The notes beneath the pieces are model-generated. The model had not been told where the DNA came from, made no database searches, and saw nothing but the letters and a program-made list of their open reading frames with translations. From a virus: DNA of 36,778 nt. The DNA is taken from IMG/VR virus record IMGVR_UViG_3300027710_002191, positions 1-36,778 of that record. The stretch is one strand, 5' to 3'. Positions 11,679-36,778 of this stretch are shown piece after piece (position 1 is the first letter of the stretch; every line of letters begins with the position of its first letter). A program made the translations under genes and the position numbers.

Positions 11679-12140
11679 TTAAGTCACCATTACAAACGGA
11701 TGAAATAATTCGCCGTTCGCCCCATATGGTTCTGCATCACCGATTTTAAAACCTAAATGTTCAAGAAAATTTACGGCAGAAGTATTAGCAGCATGCACAT
11801 GATTTTCTAAAATTCCGTAATTTTCTTTCATTTCTGCAAAGATGTGTTGAACTTGCTTCAAAAACTCTTTTTTAAAGTTTTGAATAAAGACAGTACCAAG
11901 AAGCCAAGGGCATCCAACATTTCCGATCATACTTGTTAAACCTACACCGCAAATAAAAAGCAATTTTCCATTTACAATAACGGCCCAAGCATCACGTGAA
12001 TATTTCACGCTCATTTTAATTTGCCATTGAAAGTTATCGTTGAAATAGGCTTTCATTTCTTCTTTATCAGCTGGACGCAAATTCTCTACTAAAATACGAA
12101 TGTCTCGATCAGTAGGTTTACGTATCTCAATATTTGTCAT
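11679..12140 (-). CDS. Gp13-like GNAT-fold virion protein (153 aa)
   Basis: Related in pattern to T7 gp13 (internal virion protein A). The C-terminal HAANTSAVNFLEHLGFKI corresponds to the VGNTSHIRFLKTIGAVF stretch of T7 gp13, including the N..A..F(L) helix typical of GNAT folds. The N-terminal EIRKPTDRDIRILVENLRPAD also fits that family. In T7 the protein is needed for virion maturation; acetyltransferase activity is not established. Its ATG overlaps the stop of the tail tubular B gene by four bases (ATGA), so it belongs to the same translationally coupled late operon. Confidence 0.8.
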   Translation of the reverse strand: MTNIEIRKPTDRDIRILVENLRPADKEEMKAYFNDNFQWQIKMSVKYSRDAWAVIVNGKLLFICGVGLTSMIGNVGCPWLLGTVFIQNFKKEFLKQVQHIFAEMKENYGILENHVHAANTSAVNFLEHLGFKIGDAEPYGANGELFHPFVMVT

Positions 12141-14134
12141 TTGAATTCTACCTCCATTGCCAATAGCTTCATTGGTAAAGGTTTACCATGTTTGATCGTA
12201 ATTTGTAGGTCTTTTTGGTATGCACTGGCAACAGGGATTTGAACAAAACCAGTGATCAATTCTAAAGGTTGTCCATAGTTTTCTAACCCCCTTGGCTTAT
12301 GCTCTGTAAGGTTATTCGAATCCGTTCCCGCAAGTATGTTTTGGGTGCTCAATACACGAAGATGCACATTCGTAGCTACCTTGGGTTTTGCAGGATGACT
12401 CGTATCTGATATCAATGGTAAAGTTTGAATTTCACCCTCATAGCTTAAGCCAATCCACACATTAGATAATGCTCTATCTAATGTTATTGAACCACCTGTT
12501 ACGGTTTTCGGTGGCTTCACTCCCCCATCAGCGAAAACCGATACCTCACGCCCTTCTAGCCAATCTAAACCTGTAATTGTAGTTGTGGGTGCGCCTTTAT
12601 ATTGAATTGAGCTATCAAGCAAACAATGCTCTTTAATGTCGCTATGTTGACGCATCATCATACGTTCAATCGTGCGAATACTTCCGCGCTCAATAACACA
12701 ATATAAAACCGTTTGGTCTTCTTCAGGAATTGCAGTTACAGATAGATATTTGCCATCTGTGTGTTGTTCTGCCCACGCCCATACTTGTTGCTGAGGATCG
12801 TACGTAAGAGATAACAAAACGCCGTCATCACGTACAAAAAAGGCAATGTTTAAGGGGTTGCGTACCAATGCACAGTCAATAATTTTGTGTCCATCAAACA
12901 GATGCGGACACATGATCGATAAATCCATCACTTGATAGTAAGCGTTGTAACCCTGTGATAGCGATAGCTCATGTACATGCCCTGTCTGATCCGATGCGAA
13001 CAAAGCCGCGCCGCCAACCTGTACAGGTGTTACATCATTTGCACCAACGTAAGATTGTGGCTGTACACTAACACTTGCAGCTGTCATCGCCCCATCAGAT
13101 GATAATTTCCAAACTGCACCGCTTGTAAGCACCATTAATTCACTAATTGGAACAAGGTGCTTAACACCATTACCGTCACGTGCTGCAAATCGAATTTGAA
13201 TAGAATCTGTGTCCTGTAATGGGATGTGATATGCAAAATTATCATCTGTCGCCGTTCGTGACATACGTAGCCATTGAGGTGCTTGATTCCCACCGCCATA
13301 CACTTTACGCTGACCGTAATACGCAACTGCCGTTGGATAGTATTCAAAAGGGTTACGTATTAAAGGGGGTGTAATTGCCCCATTCGTTTCGATATAGTCA
13401 TCCGTAAAACTTAGCTCTGTTGTTTCACCAATGAAACTTGCTAACCCTGATCTTAATTTAAATACGTTATATCGAGTCGCACCTGGCACTGCATCCCATG
13501 ATAAAACGTTATTGTTGCCTGAAAGTGTTAAATCGTTTTTTAAAACTGGGGACTTTTCCGAAGCCTGTGATTCGTTATCCTCATTTACAGCAGTGACTTG
13601 ATAAACATAATCACGCTCAACATATCCAGTGGTAGAAGGTTTATTAGCAACTCCAGTTAGATTTTGGGGTTGAGCCAAGCCATACCCAACTGATACCAGT
13701 TCAGTTTCCCATAATGTTGCACTTTTTCTAATAATTTTTCTTGGAGCATAATTAGGATGTGTAATGGTGATTACATCTGCTGATTGTGCGTAACGCAATT
13801 GCATTAAATGTGCGGCGGTGTAAGGTAAATCTAATTCAATAGGCTCATTTGCTTCATTTAGCAGAATTCCACCGTCTGCATAAAAATTAACTTTACCCTC
13901 GCGTATAGCTAAAACAACAGCTTGTTCTTCACTAAATACGAATGGTAATAATCGAATTACTCCTGCTGATAATGGGTAATGATGTACATAGCGTAATCCT
14001 GCACGATAGGTTAAACCTCCATACAGTTCCACATAAAAGTTTTGACATTTAGCCACGCCAGTTTGGTACTTAGCTTGGTCAAATCGTCCAAACATTTCAG
14101 ATGATACGATGCCACCATTAAATGAAACTTGCAT
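12137..14134 (-). CDS. Tail tubular protein B-like tail protein with a fibronectin III-like domain (665 aa)
   Basis: The N-terminus (MQVSFNGGIVSSEMFGRFDQ followed by AKYQTGVAKCQNFYVELYGG) is the hallmark opening of the podovirus tail tubular B/gp12-like nozzle family: N.G..S.....R.D..KY..G...C.NF......G. Residues about 155-250 look like a fibronectin type III module, ending with ITSW-like strands (NVLSWDAVPGATRYNVFKL). The rest is beta-rich, consistent with a beta-propeller tail nozzle below the gp11-like ring. It overlaps its neighbours by one base upstream (gp11-like) and four bases downstream (gp13-like), in the order expected for T7-type tails. Confidence 0.85.
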   Translation of the reverse strand: MQVSFNGGIVSSEMFGRFDQAKYQTGVAKCQNFYVELYGGLTYRAGLRYVHHYPLSAGVIRLLPFVFSEEQAVVLAIREGKVNFYADGGILLNEANEPIELDLPYTAAHLMQLRYAQSADVITITHPNYAPRKIIRKSATLWETELVSVGYGLAQPQNLTGVANKPSTTGYVERDYVYQVTAVNEDNESQASEKSPVLKNDLTLSGNNNVLSWDAVPGATRYNVFKLRSGLASFIGETTELSFTDDYIETNGAITPPLIRNPFEYYPTAVAYYGQRKVYGGGNQAPQWLRMSRTATDDNFAYHIPLQDTDSIQIRFAARDGNGVKHLVPISELMVLTSGAVWKLSSDGAMTAASVSVQPQSYVGANDVTPVQVGGAALFASDQTGHVHELSLSQGYNAYYQVMDLSIMCPHLFDGHKIIDCALVRNPLNIAFFVRDDGVLLSLTYDPQQQVWAWAEQHTDGKYLSVTAIPEEDQTVLYCVIERGSIRTIERMMMRQHSDIKEHCLLDSSIQYKGAPTTTITGLDWLEGREVSVFADGGVKPPKTVTGGSITLDRALSNVWIGLSYEGEIQTLPLISDTSHPAKPKVATNVHLRVLSTQNILAGTDSNNLTEHKPRGLENYGQPLELITGFVQIPVASAYQKDLQITIKHGKPLPMKLLAMEVEFK

Positions 14135-14688
14135 TATCTAGCCTCGTACATTGAGCCTTGGTAATCAGGACGTTTTTCAATTCGATGCTGCTGTAAATCA
14201 TTGCGGATAGCTTTTGCTTTTTCAGACTCAAACAACTGCAACATTGCACCTTGCTTTTCTTCGCTTTGACTTAACGGGCCTGCAATACGAGCTGCTATGA
14301 GATATGACAATGCGATCTTAAACACTGGCGGTAAACGCGCTAAATCTTTTACGTCACGTACATAACGTAAAATGGGTGATGGATCGTTAGTAAAAAGATG
14401 ATCGCCTTCTATATAAAAGCGTTCACCTGATTCAAGTTGAAACGTTTTAATAAAGTCGCTTGGGAGAACATATGCGATTCTTGCTGTATATCCTGCATCA
14501 ATATTCAACGCAACACTCGCCACTGCAAAAGACCATTGGTGCTCATCATCCAATAACTCTTGTCTGCAAATTGGATAATAGGTATTACACAAATTTGCAT
14601 GTGGTGTTCTTTCATTAAGATCATTAACAACATAGCCCTGTGCAAGATGCGACAGGGCTAGATTGCAAAGATCAACAATTGATCTCAT
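14134..14688 (-). CDS. Tail tubular protein A-like head-tail adaptor (184 aa)
   Basis: The opening MRSIVDLCNLALSHLAQGYV, the NTYYPICRQELLDDEHQWSFA segment and the LPSDF motif are typical of gp11/tail tubular A proteins. In those, I.(D/N)..CN.AL..LG, a Y...R...L....W.FA helix and YLPSDF recur. The protein forms the dodecameric ring that joins portal and nozzle. The length of 184 aa is close to the T7 homologue (196 aa). The stop overlaps the nozzle gene start by one base, and acb2 lies just upstream (16 bases). Confidence 0.85.
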   Translation of the reverse strand: MRSIVDLCNLALSHLAQGYVVNDLNERTPHANLCNTYYPICRQELLDDEHQWSFAVASVALNIDAGYTARIAYVLPSDFIKTFQLESGERFYIEGDHLFTNDPSPILRYVRDVKDLARLPPVFKIALSYLIAARIAGPLSQSEEKQGAMLQLFESEKAKAIRNDLQQHRIEKRPDYQGSMYEAR

Positions 14689-14704
14689 AAGGGTTTACCC
14701 TGAT

Positions 14705-15031
14705 TTAACAATTTGTTGGTTGTGCCACGGCTCGAACAAGAGCCATAATTCCTGTCTGAATATCTGTCTTACCAATTGCAGCCCAACGCAATGGCTCTGC
14801 TTCTTGGAAACGCTCAAGCTCTTGACACTCATCACTAGCAAAATCATTTGGCGCAAATTTTGAGTTAAATGCCGCAGCTTTCTTCACTTCTAAATCTGTA
14901 TCAAGACGGCCTACAAGCTCAGCTTGCAAAGCTAGCAGTTCAGCACCTTTCTCTTTAATGCGATTCATTAAATCAACTTCTTCTTGAGAAAGTTCACGAT
15001 AGCCTTTGATTTTGCGGTGTTGGTTTTCCAT
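14705..15031 (-). CDS. acb2: Acb2-family cyclic-oligonucleotide sponge (anti-CBASS), 108 aa
   Basis: The N-terminal half MENQHRKIKGYRELSQEEVD and C-terminal LRWAAIGKTDIQTGIMALVR are the signature helices of the Acb2/Tad1-hairpin family. These small phage proteins bind cyclic di- and trinucleotides and so block CBASS (and in some relatives Thoeris) signalling. I start at the ATG at 15031, which has AAAGG nine bases upstream. The ATG at 15073 lies inside a terminator stem and lacks a ribosome site. With this start the family's ligand-contact residues as I recall them, Tyr11 and Lys26, fall exactly at 11 and 26. About 14 extra residues (around 52-78) enlarge the loop compared with the roughly 94-aa Pseudomonas protein. 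It sits between capsid and tail genes, behind a hairpin. Activity is inferred. Confidence 0.85.
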   Translation of the reverse strand: MENQHRKIKGYRELSQEEVDLMNRIKEKGAELLALQAELVGRLDTDLEVKKAAAFNSKFAPNDFASDECQELERFQEAEPLRWAAIGKTDIQTGIMALVRAVAQPTNC

Positions 15032-15063
15032 ACTTAAACGCCTTTGTATGTGACTGTTTAGTG

Positions 15064-15089
15064 AAAAGCCCATAATCGCATGGGCTTTT
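15064..15089 (-). terminator. Hairpin terminator/attenuator between the capsid module and acb2
   Basis: AAAAGCCCAT (15064-15073) and ATGGGCTTTT (15080-15089) form a perfect 10-bp stem with a 6-base loop. On the minus strand the stem ends in TTTT, giving a modest terminator after the HeH gene. On the plus strand the tail TTTTTGGTTTTATT is richer. Partial read-through would set the expression of acb2 and the tail genes below that of capsid. Confidence 0.6.
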
Positions 15090-15094
15090 TGGTT

Positions 15095-15370
15095 TTATTG
15101 CAAAAGTTCAGATTCTTCTAGCAATGCCACAAGTTCAGCCTTCGTTTCACCGCCGTTCAGCTCGATCCCTTTTGCAACTGCCGCAGCGGTTAGAGCTTCT
15201 TTATTCATGCGCGAATAATTTGTTGAACCATCTGAATTGACTTGCTTTGGATTAATGTCATCAAACCAAAGTGCTGTTTCACCTTCGGGTACCACAAATA
15301 CTTCACCTTCTTGAACTAGGCGATCGTTGTAGAAACCCTTTTGGTTTGCGCGTACTTGCTTGTGATCCAT
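15095..15370 (-). CDS. Small protein with HeH/LEM-like C-terminal domain (91 aa)
   Basis: The C-terminal half, MNKEALTAAAVAKGIELNGG then ETKAELVALLEE, is a HeH/LEM/SAP-like helix-extended-helix motif. It is commonly found in small phage proteins next to the capsid gene. The N-terminal half (MDHKQVRANQKGFYNDRLVQ followed by EGEVFVVPEG) reads as a small beta domain with a metabolically neutral, possibly virion-associated role. It is encoded three bases after the cement gene and ends just before the hairpin at 15064-15089. Specific function unknown; a structural or DNA-end accessory role is inference from position. Confidence 0.7.
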   Translation of the reverse strand: MDHKQVRANQKGFYNDRLVQEGEVFVVPEGETALWFDDINPKQVNSDGSTNYSRMNKEALTAAAVAKGIELNGGETKAELVALLEESELLQ

Positions 15371-15373
15371 GTC

Positions 15374-15778
15374 TTATGCTCCTGCATAAACTGGATAAGC
15401 TGCCTGCACGTCTCGGTGATTTGAGATATGTGCATAGACAGTACCCGCTGTGAATGGGCCGCTTGCAACCACGTAGTTCAGACGAACATAACGCTTAGGT
15501 TTTACTGGCAACATTACTTCACCAACTAAACCTGAATTTAACTCTGCACCTGTATAGGCACGTGAAGTTTCTACCGTAGTCCAAGTGCTGTTATCTGAAG
15601 ATTCTTGCAATTGAACTGTGATAGTTGCAGTTGTTGGAAGTAAGTTTTTACCACGTACCAAAACTGGCAAACGGTTTACGCTTGTAGAAGCTTTTTGCAA
15701 ATCTAGCGTGTCCGTTGATGCCGCTGTTGATGTGATGGCTTGATCCATCGACATCACAAGTAATTTATCGATTAACAT
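15374..15778 (-). CDS. Bbp16-like capsid cement/decoration protein (134 aa)
   Basis: It begins MLIDKLLVMSMDQAITSTAA and continues with beta-rich segments containing ITVQLQESSDNSTWTTVETS and PKRYVRLNYVVASGPFTAGT. This is the pattern of the Bbp16 capsid cement family of BPP-1-like phages, which form spikes or clamps on the outer capsid surface. It follows the major capsid gene by nine bases, as in that group, which supports the assignment. No cysteine, no signal peptide. Confidence 0.8.
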   Translation of the reverse strand: MLIDKLLVMSMDQAITSTAASTDTLDLQKASTSVNRLPVLVRGKNLLPTTATITVQLQESSDNSTWTTVETSRAYTGAELNSGLVGEVMLPVKPKRYVRLNYVVASGPFTAGTVYAHISNHRDVQAAYPVYAGA

Positions 15779-15787
15779 ACTTACTCC

Positions 15788-16783
15788 TTAAACCACACGA
15801 GATTCAGTGTTAAGCAAAGCATCAACACGACGAATTGGGATACCGTCGAACTTAGTGATACTGCGACCGCCCTGTTCTTCTGTTGTAATGCGTACGTTTG
15901 AACCCTTAACGCTTTGACGACGTAAGAATTGCGAAATGGTACGGTTAGCATAAATTGCAACACGACCATTTGTTTTTCGTGGCAATAATTCCGCAGCTTG
16001 TGCCAAGAGATCAAACAGATCTGCGCCTGCACTTGCATCTTTGGTTAGTGCAGTTACATCGATGTTTGCAATTCGAACAACCGCACGCCAGTCGCGAACT
16101 GTCACGCCCGCATTCCAAACGAAATGAGTACGTAGCACCTGGTGCATTAAGCCGTTAGCATCTTTATCAGTTACTTCACCAAGGTTACGGATTTGCAAAC
16201 CGCCTTTGGTGCCTTTTGGATAAATGCCGTGAACAGTGTCTTTATGCCAAACAACAAACCAAATTGAAGTGTTGTTGTTGCCTGTGCCACCAGCATCCAA
16301 AATGTTGCGTTTATTTGCAGGATTGGTTTGTGCAATGTCGTTATAACGCGGTGCAAAACCAGTAAATGCCGCAGGCGTGTCACGTGAGTTGCCATATAAA
16401 ATGGTTTCACCCATGTTTTGTGACATGCCTTCAACAAAAGCAGCATCTTCACTTGCACGCCACTCTTGTGGGTTTTGTTCCATATCATAAAGTTGCTTAT
16501 CAACTTCGGAATATGATTCCAATAATCCGCAAGTATCACGAACTGCTGCTGTTGCAGATTTCTCAGCAGGAACACCGTAGTTTAATAAACGCCATGCACC
16601 ACGTGGCAAACCTGTACGTACTGTAGTTTTATGACCAGTACCGTCATTTGCTTCAACCCATACCATGTCATCAAGCATTTCATTGCTTGCTGTGAGGATT
16701 TCAATTACTGCGCTTTCGGGCGTCTGTCCGTAGCGCGCAGCTAAATCCATCAATGTAGGTTGTAATTGTGCGACTAAAGACAT
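15788..16783 (-). CDS. Major capsid protein (331 aa)
   Basis: The sequence is typical of BPP-1/epsilon15-type HK97-fold major capsid proteins. MSLVAQLQPTLMDLAARYG opens it. VRTGLPRGAWRLLNYGV sits at residues about 55-72, YSEVDKQLYDMEQNP around 92, an E/FVEGMSQNMGETILYG helix around 115-130, and the FDGIPIRRVDALLNTE segment near the end matches the P-domain closing strands. The length of 331 aa is usual. It is encoded directly after the scaffold gene (14 bases), and the Bbp16-like cement gene follows. High expression is expected; codon use is the most regular in the window by eye. Confidence 0.9.
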   Translation of the reverse strand: MSLVAQLQPTLMDLAARYGQTPESAVIEILTASNEMLDDMVWVEANDGTGHKTTVRTGLPRGAWRLLNYGVPAEKSATAAVRDTCGLLESYSEVDKQLYDMEQNPQEWRASEDAAFVEGMSQNMGETILYGNSRDTPAAFTGFAPRYNDIAQTNPANKRNILDAGGTGNNNTSIWFVVWHKDTVHGIYPKGTKGGLQIRNLGEVTDKDANGLMHQVLRTHFVWNAGVTVRDWRAVVRIANIDVTALTKDASAGADLFDLLAQAAELLPRKTNGRVAIYANRTISQFLRRQSVKGSNVRITTEEQGGRSITKFDGIPIRRVDALLNTESRVV

Positions 16784-29336: not shown

Positions 29337-29391
29337 GCTTTGGAAAGTGAATGTCTAGTTGTTGACCCCTCTACGTTCACTTTACCAAAGC
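29337..29391 (+). promoter_or_regulatory. Long hairpin just before the methyltransferase ribosome site
   Basis: GCTTTGG plus AAAGTGAA (29337-29351) pair with TTCACTTT and CCAAAGC (29376-29391), interrupted only by one bulged A at 29384. Three more pairs (TGT/ACG) extend the stem inwards around an 18-base loop. The AGGAG ribosome site at 29394-29398 starts three bases later. As RNA it could mask or present the start site; as DNA it is a 15-bp inverted operator. Confidence 0.7.
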
Positions 29392-29405
29392 ATAGGAGAA
29401 TCAAT

Positions 29406-30854
29406 ATGCGACTTAATAAATTAATAATAGATAATTTCGCAGGCGGTGGCGGCACAAGCACAGGTTTAGAACAAGCTTTCGGTCGCTCAGTAGATGTCGC
29501 AATTAATCACGATCCCAAAGCATTAGCAATGCACCGAGCCAATCATCCTGACACCGAACATTATTGCGAAAGTGTTTGGGATGTAGATCCAAGAGAAGTT
29601 GCAAAAGGTAAACCTGTTGGTCTTGTTTGGTTATCGCCTGACTGTAAGCATTTTTCAAAAGCTAAGGGCAGCAAACCTTTGGATAAGAAGATACGCGGTC
29701 TTGCTTGGGTTGCTTTGCGTTGGGCTGATTTAGTTGAACCTGATGTAATCATGCTTGAGAACGTAGAAGAATTCAAAACCTGGGGCAGAATAGGCGAAGA
29801 CGGTAAGCCATGCCCAAAACATAAAGGCAATACTTTCAAAAGCTTTGTAAACGCACTTAAGTATCAAGGGTACGCCGTTGAATGGCGCGTTTTAGTTGCG
29901 TGTGACTTTGGCGCACCTACAACCCGTCGACGCTTTTTTCTTGTTGCTCGTCGTGACGGCCTTCCTATTGTATGGCCGAAGCCTACACATGGTTCCCCTA
30001 ATACAAAGGCAGTTAAATCGGGATTATTGAAACCATTCCGTACAGCAGCCGAGTGCATCGACTGGTCTATTCCATGCCCAAGCATATTCGAGCGCAAAAA
30101 ACCTTTAGCTGAATCAACATCAAAACGTGTTGCCACTGGCTTAGTTCGTCACGTCATTAATAATCCTGAGCCTTTCATTGTAAATGGTAATGTTGCGCCA
30201 GTGATGACAGAGATTGCCAATGCTTCTTCACCTCGATGTATGAAAGCGGATGAACCGATTCGCACAATCTGCGCATCAACGAAAGGCGGACATCATGCAT
30301 TAGTCACAGCATTTATTGCTAAACACTATACAGGCGTAGTTGGCAACAAATGTGATCAAACACTTGGAACCATTACAACTAAGGACCATCACAGCGTTGT
30401 AACAGGAACTATTGTTAAGTTAAGAAATAATTGTATTGGACAATCAGTTCAAGAACCTTTGCACACTATTACTGCCAGTGCTGGGCACTTTGCTGCTGTT
30501 TGTGCATTTCTAACAGCTTTCTATGGCAATGAAAAAGATGCAAACAGCGTTAAGGATCCGCTAAGAACAATTACGACAAAAGACCGTTTCGGTTTGGTTA
30601 TGGTCAAAGGTGTAGCGCATCAAATTGTTGATATCGGCTTGCGTATGTTTCAACCAGTTGAACTTTTCAAAGCTCAGGGTTTTCCAGAAACTTACATTTT
30701 TAGTTATGGCGTGGATGAATCAGGCCAAACTATAAAATTAACAAAAACAGAGCAAACAAGAATGGTTGGTAATTCAGTACCACCTGATCTGGCACGTGCT
30801 TTGGCTACAGCTAATTTTAGTTATTTAAATGATCAAGTAGGGGTTTGCCAATGA
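29406..30854 (+). CDS. C5-cytosine DNA methyltransferase (482 aa)
   Basis: I start at ATG 29406 (AGGAG seven bases upstream). Motif I is DNFAGGGGTSTGLEQAFG (residues 9-26). Motif IV is LSPDCKHFSKAKG with catalytic Cys80 and Asp79 in place of the usual Pro. Motif VI is ENV (118-120), and motif VIII is TTRRRFF (172-178). The closing motif X is MVGNSVPPDLARAL. A long insert between VIII and X with repeated ITTKDRF/ITTKDHH-like segments is the target-recognition region. It would methylate cytosine in phage or host DNA, most simply to evade host restriction. It has no restriction partner, so it is an orphan methyltransferase. It overlaps the polymerase gene by four bases (ATGA). Confidence 0.9.
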   Translation: MRLNKLIIDNFAGGGGTSTGLEQAFGRSVDVAINHDPKALAMHRANHPDTEHYCESVWDVDPREVAKGKPVGLVWLSPDCKHFSKAKGSKPLDKKIRGLAWVALRWADLVEPDVIMLENVEEFKTWGRIGEDGKPCPKHKGNTFKSFVNALKYQGYAVEWRVLVACDFGAPTTRRRFFLVARRDGLPIVWPKPTHGSPNTKAVKSGLLKPFRTAAECIDWSIPCPSIFERKKPLAESTSKRVATGLVRHVINNPEPFIVNGNVAPVMTEIANASSPRCMKADEPIRTICASTKGGHHALVTAFIAKHYTGVVGNKCDQTLGTITTKDHHSVVTGTIVKLRNNCIGQSVQEPLHTITASAGHFAAVCAFLTAFYGNEKDANSVKDPLRTITTKDRFGLVMVKGVAHQIVDIGLRMFQPVELFKAQGFPETYIFSYGVDESGQTIKLTKTEQTRMVGNSVPPDLARALATANFSYLNDQVGVCQ

Positions 30855-36151: not shown

Positions 36152-36778
36152 TTAATTAATTTTATAAAATTTTAATATAAGTTTCTGTAAATCATCATTT
36201 ATAAAGGATTTTTTAAGCTTCAGAAAATTATCAGCTCTAAAACCAGAAAGTACAGCCCAATAATTTCCAACCGTTGTTGTATTACAGTCCACTTTTGCCA
36301 AACATAAATCAACCATTAGGTTTAAGAGCTTAGGAGTTATATCATCTAGATTAGATTCTTCACTTTCTAAAGTTGCATTAAACTCATTAAGTACTTTTTT
36401 CAAAAAATCAATTTCTGGCATTAAGAGCTCAAATGAATCTGCCATGCTCTGAGATAATTTATCGATATCTTTCATCTCCAAGGGGGCACCCTTTACGGTT
36501 TTCCCCACCGCAACATAGAATTCATGAAATCTATTTTCACAATCATTTAAGAGAACATGTGTGTTTTTTCTGATCTCTTTTAACATGTCTACTCGGTGTT
36601 GTTCACGCCAATCCGTAAAAATCATGTATGCAACAAAGGAGGCAAACAGAGTTGTACCCGCAGCAATAAAATCCCCACTAATTCCAATAATCTCTCTACC
36701 GATTATGGCAAATTCGCAACAAATCAAAATACAAATTATCGCGACAATAACCAGTTCATGTAATTTCAGTTTTTTCAT
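36152..36778 (-). CDS. Membrane protein of unknown function, probable lysogenic conversion gene (208 aa)
   Basis: The ATG is the last three bases of the window, so the true start could lie further upstream, though MKKLKLHELVIVAIICILIC is a plausible beginning. Two hydrophobic helices are visible near residues 8-26 and 33-54 (the second FIAAGTTLFASFVAYMIF), followed by WREQHRVDMLKEIRKNTHVL and a long helical cytoplasmic part rich in Asn, Leu, Glu and Lys. No domain is recognised. The gene is convergent to the early operon, AT-rich, and has its own terminator, as in morons expressed from the prophage. A superinfection-exclusion or abortive-infection role is possible for such proteins but is only inference. 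Confidence 0.65.
   Translation of the reverse strand: MKKLKLHELVIVAIICILICCEFAIIGREIIGISGDFIAAGTTLFASFVAYMIFTDWREQHRVDMLKEIRKNTHVLLNDCENRFHEFYVAVGKTVKGAPLEMKDIDKLSQSMADSFELLMPEIDFLKKVLNEFNATLESEESNLDDITPKLLNLMVDLCLAKVDCNTTTVGNYWAVLSGFRADNFLKLKKSFINDDLQKLILKFYKIN

Follow-up and report, generated by a model that had tools for sequence, protein, structure and literature searches.

A gene in the head-tail region of the window (IMG/VR record IMGVR_UViG_3300027710_002191, taken in full, 36,778 nt) very probably encodes an Acb2-type CBASS sponge, here called P0001, and lies in a cassette occupying a slot that carries exchangeable sponge cargo in related Acinetobacter phages. The protein itself is, as its sequence indicates, a clear member of the known Acb2 family. 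Its open reading frame, which belongs to the minus strand, runs from 15031 to 14705 and specifies 108 residues, and the plus strand holds no open frame at 14705-15031. A sequence-only reading of this DNA had given the coordinates 14705-15031, which we confirmed, and had chosen the start codon at 15031 (MENQ). A mechanical caller places the start at 15073 (122 aa); the choice of 15031 proved right, the first methionine being invariant in 56 aligned homologs and the motif AAAGGCG lying just upstream. The gene and its surroundings are arranged as follows:

15788 to 16783, minus strand: major capsid gene, GP7 family (PF20911, E 1.9e-129).
15374 to 15778, minus strand: Bbp16-like head protein gene (PF21190, E 3.8e-22).
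15095 to 15370, minus strand: small gene of 91 aa, HeH/LEM-like at its C-terminus, left border of the slot (weak PF09124 match, 0.0065; PHROG 25024, E 3e-13).
14705 to 15094, minus strand: cassette of hairpin and acb2, 390 nt, missing in L086 by pairwise alignment.
15064 to 15089, minus strand: conserved hairpin with a 10-bp stem and 6-nt loop, between the HeH gene and acb2 (folding across relatives).
14705 to 15031 including the stop, minus strand: acb2 homolog, P0001, 108 aa (PF24729, 8h2j sequence, AlphaFold model).
14689 to 14704, minus strand: junction and tail-gene ribosome-site stretch, TCAGGGTAAACCCTT, common to empty and filled slots (locus comparison).
14134 to 14688, minus strand: tail-tubular-type tail protein gene, 184 aa, right border of the slot (PHROG 394, E 3e-46).
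12137 to 14134, minus strand: nozzle-type tail protein gene (PHROG 376, E 1.5e-192).

The head-tail gene order previously proposed for this region matches these assignments (GP7 capsid, Bbp16, and tail proteins of PHROG 394 and PHROG 376). Elsewhere in the window, an ORF at 29340-30854 resembles, from sequence only, a DNA cytosine-5 methyltransferase (FAGGGGTSTGLEQAF...) and is a possible anti-restriction gene, and a 208-aa ORF at 36152-36778 has a hydrophobic N-terminus and a weak PHROG match; it extends to the record's final base and is possibly truncated.

P0001 matched Pfam PF24729 (Acb2_Tad1_hairpin) with an E value of 3.3e-17 and a score of 62.9 bits, the cut-off being 27, and PHROG 717 at E 8e-29. 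Acb2 sequences of known crystal structure matched at E 3.4e-24 (8h2j) and 1.3e-23, the T4 Vs.4 sequence matched weakly, and searches of P0001 with PADLOC and NCBIfam gave no meaningful match. Structure prediction, which had been suggested as a check, was run on the monomer. The AlphaFold model (pLDDT 89) contains helices at residues 4-7, 16-57, 67-78 and 80-102, the last of these showing the C-terminal helix to be intact, as had been claimed. When the model was compared with 648 chains, the top three matches were all Acb2 entries, 8h2j, 8h2x and 7uq2 (Z scores 10.1, 10.0 and 9.4), and the model superimposed on 8h2j with an rmsd of 2.1 over 91 residues. Unrelated helical hairpins came next, close below at a Z score of about 8.9. 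Because a Z score of 10 is little above that of unrelated hairpins, the family assignment, which agrees with the earlier one, rests mainly on the sequence matches, and the fold supports it. The structurally studied Acb2 of PaMx33/PaP2 (PDB 8h2j, 8ixz) has family, fold and conserved ends in common with P0001, but it is 93-94 aa long with a shorter hairpin tip, and its gene follows replication genes and adjoins a terminator, whereas acb2 of the window lies within the head-tail order. T4 Acb2 (Vs.4, PDB 7uq2) also shares the fold; it is 28% identical to P0001 by structural alignment, shorter, and found in another gene context.

The ligand-contact residues had been placed at Tyr11 and Lys26. Both residues stand at these positions, and across 56 homologs Lys26, which we take to be a ligand-contact residue, and Thr89 are invariant, Tyr11 is at least 90% conserved, and the C-terminal motif RWAAIGKTDIQTGIMALVRAVAQP hardly varies. 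In T4 Acb2, the Y8A variant is binding-deficient and T68M has lowered affinity (PMC12657230); Tyr8 and Thr68 align to Tyr11 and Thr89 of P0001, and both residue types are thus kept. Compared with the 93-aa sequence of crystallized Acb2, P0001 has about 15 additional residues, in line with the roughly 14 noticed before; they lie in the hairpin tip that joins the long helices. If this longer loop had abolished or shifted ligand binding, P0001 would be no CBASS sponge or would prefer other ligands, and homolog length does vary (102-120 aa in the best 80 homologs from viral contigs). We regard this as quite improbable, given that the T4 Tyr8 and Thr68 equivalents and the C-terminal motif are preserved, and that the dinucleotide pocket of Acb2 is built by the N- and C-terminal helices (PMC10419184), so that a change of ligand range originating from the tip is not supported. 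Moreover, Acb2 of JBD67 (Pseudomonas Beetrevirus, AFR52294) is also 108 aa long, 72% identical to P0001 and equal to it in loop length. A passage of PMC13083879, citing Huiting 2023, describes the JBD67 protein as contributing to resistance: the phage without acb2 loses titre, and Acb2 partly rescues it. Among the 80 homologs, which were retrieved by similarity to P0001 and therefore lean to its length, 108 aa was the commonest length (30/80), making the 93-94-aa protein the short form, with the extra residues extending the hairpin tip. The suggestion that the long loop could alter ligand range therefore found no support, and the loop as a novelty was rejected.

Sister phages were collected by capsid-anchored searches and a hairpin-pattern search; every one with a known host comes from Acinetobacter. 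Although their capsids are near-identical, the interval from the HeH gene to the tail-tubular gene differs in its cargo:

Acb2: the window, L088, L097.
PF13876, the Acb4 family (PMC11722364): L090-L095, L100-L104, L147, L151, L152.
Tad2-like PF11195: L134 (Acinetobacter tandoii), E 9e-27.
144-aa protein ending in PF21825: L084, L087, L099, L133, and as a second gene in L093.
87-aa orphan: L157.
Empty slot without the hairpin: L086, L089, L096, L131, L132, L139.
Empty slot with the hairpin present: L098.

The Acb4 and Tad2 sponges that fill the same slot in sister phages are unrelated to Acb2; Tad2 has mainly been associated with Thoeris signals. A search for Acb2 in four Acinetobacter genomes with related prophages found none. 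In L091 (6240-6618), the slot gene of the Acb4 family is frameshifted, with a 64-aa N-terminal piece and the remainder in another frame, and appears to be a decaying sponge.

The closest relative of the window phage, L086 (capsid 97%), differs by a clean 390-nt insertion in the window, which sits between two in-register TAA stops. Empty and filled sites have the same junctions, and the locus thus shows the presence/absence pattern of a moron. Comparison of L097 (Acb2) with L134 (Tad2-like) revealed about 97% identity in the pair of genes preceding the slot as well as in the start of the tail gene, and an identical hairpin, with unrelated cargo in between. When phages that differ in cargo are compared, the tail gene shows 90% identity over its first 45 nt and about 58-79% further in, and identical-codon use declines from 0.79 to about 0.5. 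This gradient fits recombination in a shared flank, to which constraint on translation start could add. The hairpin and a single gene form a cassette inserted between the HeH and tail-tubular genes, with Acb4, Tad2, the PF21825 protein or nothing as alternatives in related phages. Homologous recombination between the conserved flanking sequences is the probable means by which cargo is swapped. Hotspots of P2-like phages (moron/defence, PMC9122126) likewise hold a variable gene at a fixed site flanked by conserved genes; the slot differs from them in that its known cargo consists of second-messenger sponges, in its conserved hairpin and in its nearness to the capsid gene. While accessory-gene hotspots as such are known, we found no description of a slot exchanging sponge families in the open-access literature searched, where it appears to be undescribed.

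The 10-bp hairpin seen just upstream of acb2 in the sequence-only reading is real. It has the sequence AAAAGCCCAT-AATCGC-ATGGGCTTTT (-13.8 kcal/mol including flank), folds in all examined cargo-bearing relatives of the main lineage, and is absent from five of six empty main-lineage loci. Its base changes maintain pairing, with A-U for G-C in the window and G-C for A-U in L102. The same reading had called it an attenuator, for which the evidence was mixed: the stem is conserved, but on the gene strand the U tail has only 4 U and lies inside the stem, the terminator scan found the hairpin terminator-like only in the direction opposite to acb2, and terminator-like sites were no commoner in the region than in shuffled sequence (4 versus 4.3). 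A scan of the region detected no promoter-like site of note behind the hairpin, and no hairpin was found directly downstream of the cargo in the lineage of the window. Possible roles of the element are leaky termination and RNA processing; alternatively, it may be left over from the boundary of the cassette.

A second Acinetobacter lineage (L203-L220) has a different capsid, of 302 aa. It entered the analysis through a prior Acb2 find, a choice that did not select for the Acb4 and PF21825 cases in it. The order here is capsid stop, a strong terminator-like hairpin, cargo or none, and the tail-tubular gene, which is preceded by a further hairpin. The cargo is distributed as follows:

Acb2: L203, L205, L220.
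PF13876: L217, L218; fused to PF21825 in L212.
PF21825 carrying the N-terminal domain also seen in the L087 protein: L216.
Small orphans: L206, L211.
Empty slots also occur.

In L203, L205, L206, L211, L212, L216 and L218, the slot gene has a terminator-like hairpin on either side, all within a structural operon on one strand. Such flanking would imply antitermination, leakiness or an undetected promoter. A comparable location is found outside Acinetobacter: acb2 of JBD67 also lies between the major capsid and head-tail adaptor genes, where JBD18 and B3 have no acb2, although JBD67 is another phage type from another host and a 64-aa ORF precedes its acb2. In other phages (L054, L055, L058, L069 and L075), Acb2 homologs adjoin long genes that by their position resemble portal and head genes, which would be a further location within head modules.

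We considered whether the location of acb2 might have an explanation other than sponge exchange. Its placement between head and tail genes would suit a structural head-tail joining part that has the Acb2 fold by chance, yet the gene is absent from close relatives in which gene order is otherwise unchanged, it is replaced by unrelated proteins and thus cannot be an essential part of the virion, and Acb2 homologs occur in many other gene contexts; a structural role is hardly credible. A general accessory-gene (moron) site, where sponges are found because they are common small phage genes, deserves more weight and is nonetheless somewhat unlikely. It would accommodate the occurrence of Acb2 at many other sites in other phages and the orphan cargoes without known relatives (L157, 87 aa; L206, 61 aa; L211, 56 aa), which match no known sponge, so that the slot may accept other types of gene. 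On the other hand, three unrelated sponge families occupy the one slot, a second lineage with a different capsid repeats the same choice of cargo, and Acb2 and Acb4 domains were confined to the slot in 32 phage records. There, PF13876 was in the slot in 13/13 cases and PF24729 in 5/5 (18/18 together); with PF21825 (5/6), the total was 23/24. Lineage-1 records were selected by capsid and not by cargo, and since many related records are near-identical, the counts are not independent and the binomial result means only 'far from chance'. The Tad2 domain was not found in the 32 phage records, the slot example in L134 lying in a bacterial genome.

Sponge exchange being the preferred explanation of the cargo, it is possible, and we put it forward tentatively, that the slot is a dedicated site for exchanging second-messenger sponges, in which case its unexplained occupants would be new sponge families, PF21825 (crAss001_48) foremost. 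The PF21825 proteins of the slot carry a conserved N-terminal domain, 'YIGTK...GYISWSP' (about 80 residues, PHROG 872), which elsewhere is fused to Tad2-like, Acb4 and WDGH domains; phages with this domain are L134, L168, L171, L172, L174, L200-L202 and L087. In L174 it is fused to a weak, below-cutoff match to a Tad1-type hairpin, and in L212 PF21825 is fused directly to Acb4. Sponge modules appear to share the PHROG 872 domain as a partner. The PF21825 hairpin gave no profile match to Acb2, and a fold search with the model of the 144-aa protein (pTM 0.47) returned generic helical hairpins only, which is informative neither way. The 'DUF2829' (Tad2-type) label on the cargo of phage 4316 (L084:8383-8817, OM334891.1, UKM17094) was rejected, as the near-identical L087 protein matches PF21825 C-terminally and not Tad2; the annotation of UKM17094 probably stems from the shared N-terminal domain. 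The orphans at L157:11377-11637 (minus), L206:3974-4156 and L211:3983-4150 have no Pfam match, that of L157 having no PHROG match either, and are by position candidate new counter-defence genes.

According to the proposed mechanism, P0001 would form a predicted hexamer that holds CBASS cyclic di- and trinucleotides, and with these signals held the killing effectors of CBASS would stay off. The sequence-only reading had placed acb2 in the late operon, with the protein perhaps made late or, by read-through, in the lysogen. The gene is the third after that of the capsid and shares its strand. From a Cro-like gene (25795) onward every gene uses the minus strand, and a CI-like repressor lies opposite, so the sponge is expected after induction. 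Judging by gene order, expression should be late: the sponge would be made with the virion proteins on induction or infection, at a time when CBASS would be active, and little of it in the lysogen. A review places the action of Acb2 at induction and not in the quiet lysogen (PMC12043709). A CD-NTase domain (PF18144) is present in 36/176 Acinetobacter genomes, indicating that CBASS pressure exists. Carriage may also have a cost, because the Panoptes defence is set off once sponges take away its decoy signal (PMC12657218, PMC12657230), which offers a possible reason for empty slots. PaMx41 without acb2 escaped CBASS by capsid mutations (PMC10419184), and we speculate that the location of a sponge near the capsid gene is maybe more than chance.

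Taken alone, P0001 adds one member to a known family, and the slot is the more useful result. It shows that temperate phages exchange one entire sponge family for another at a single site close behind the capsid gene, and its position offers a route to new sponges. Phages with an empty slot, Acb2, Acb4 or Tad2 constitute natural near-isogenic pairs for testing which signal is defended against and why some slots are empty.
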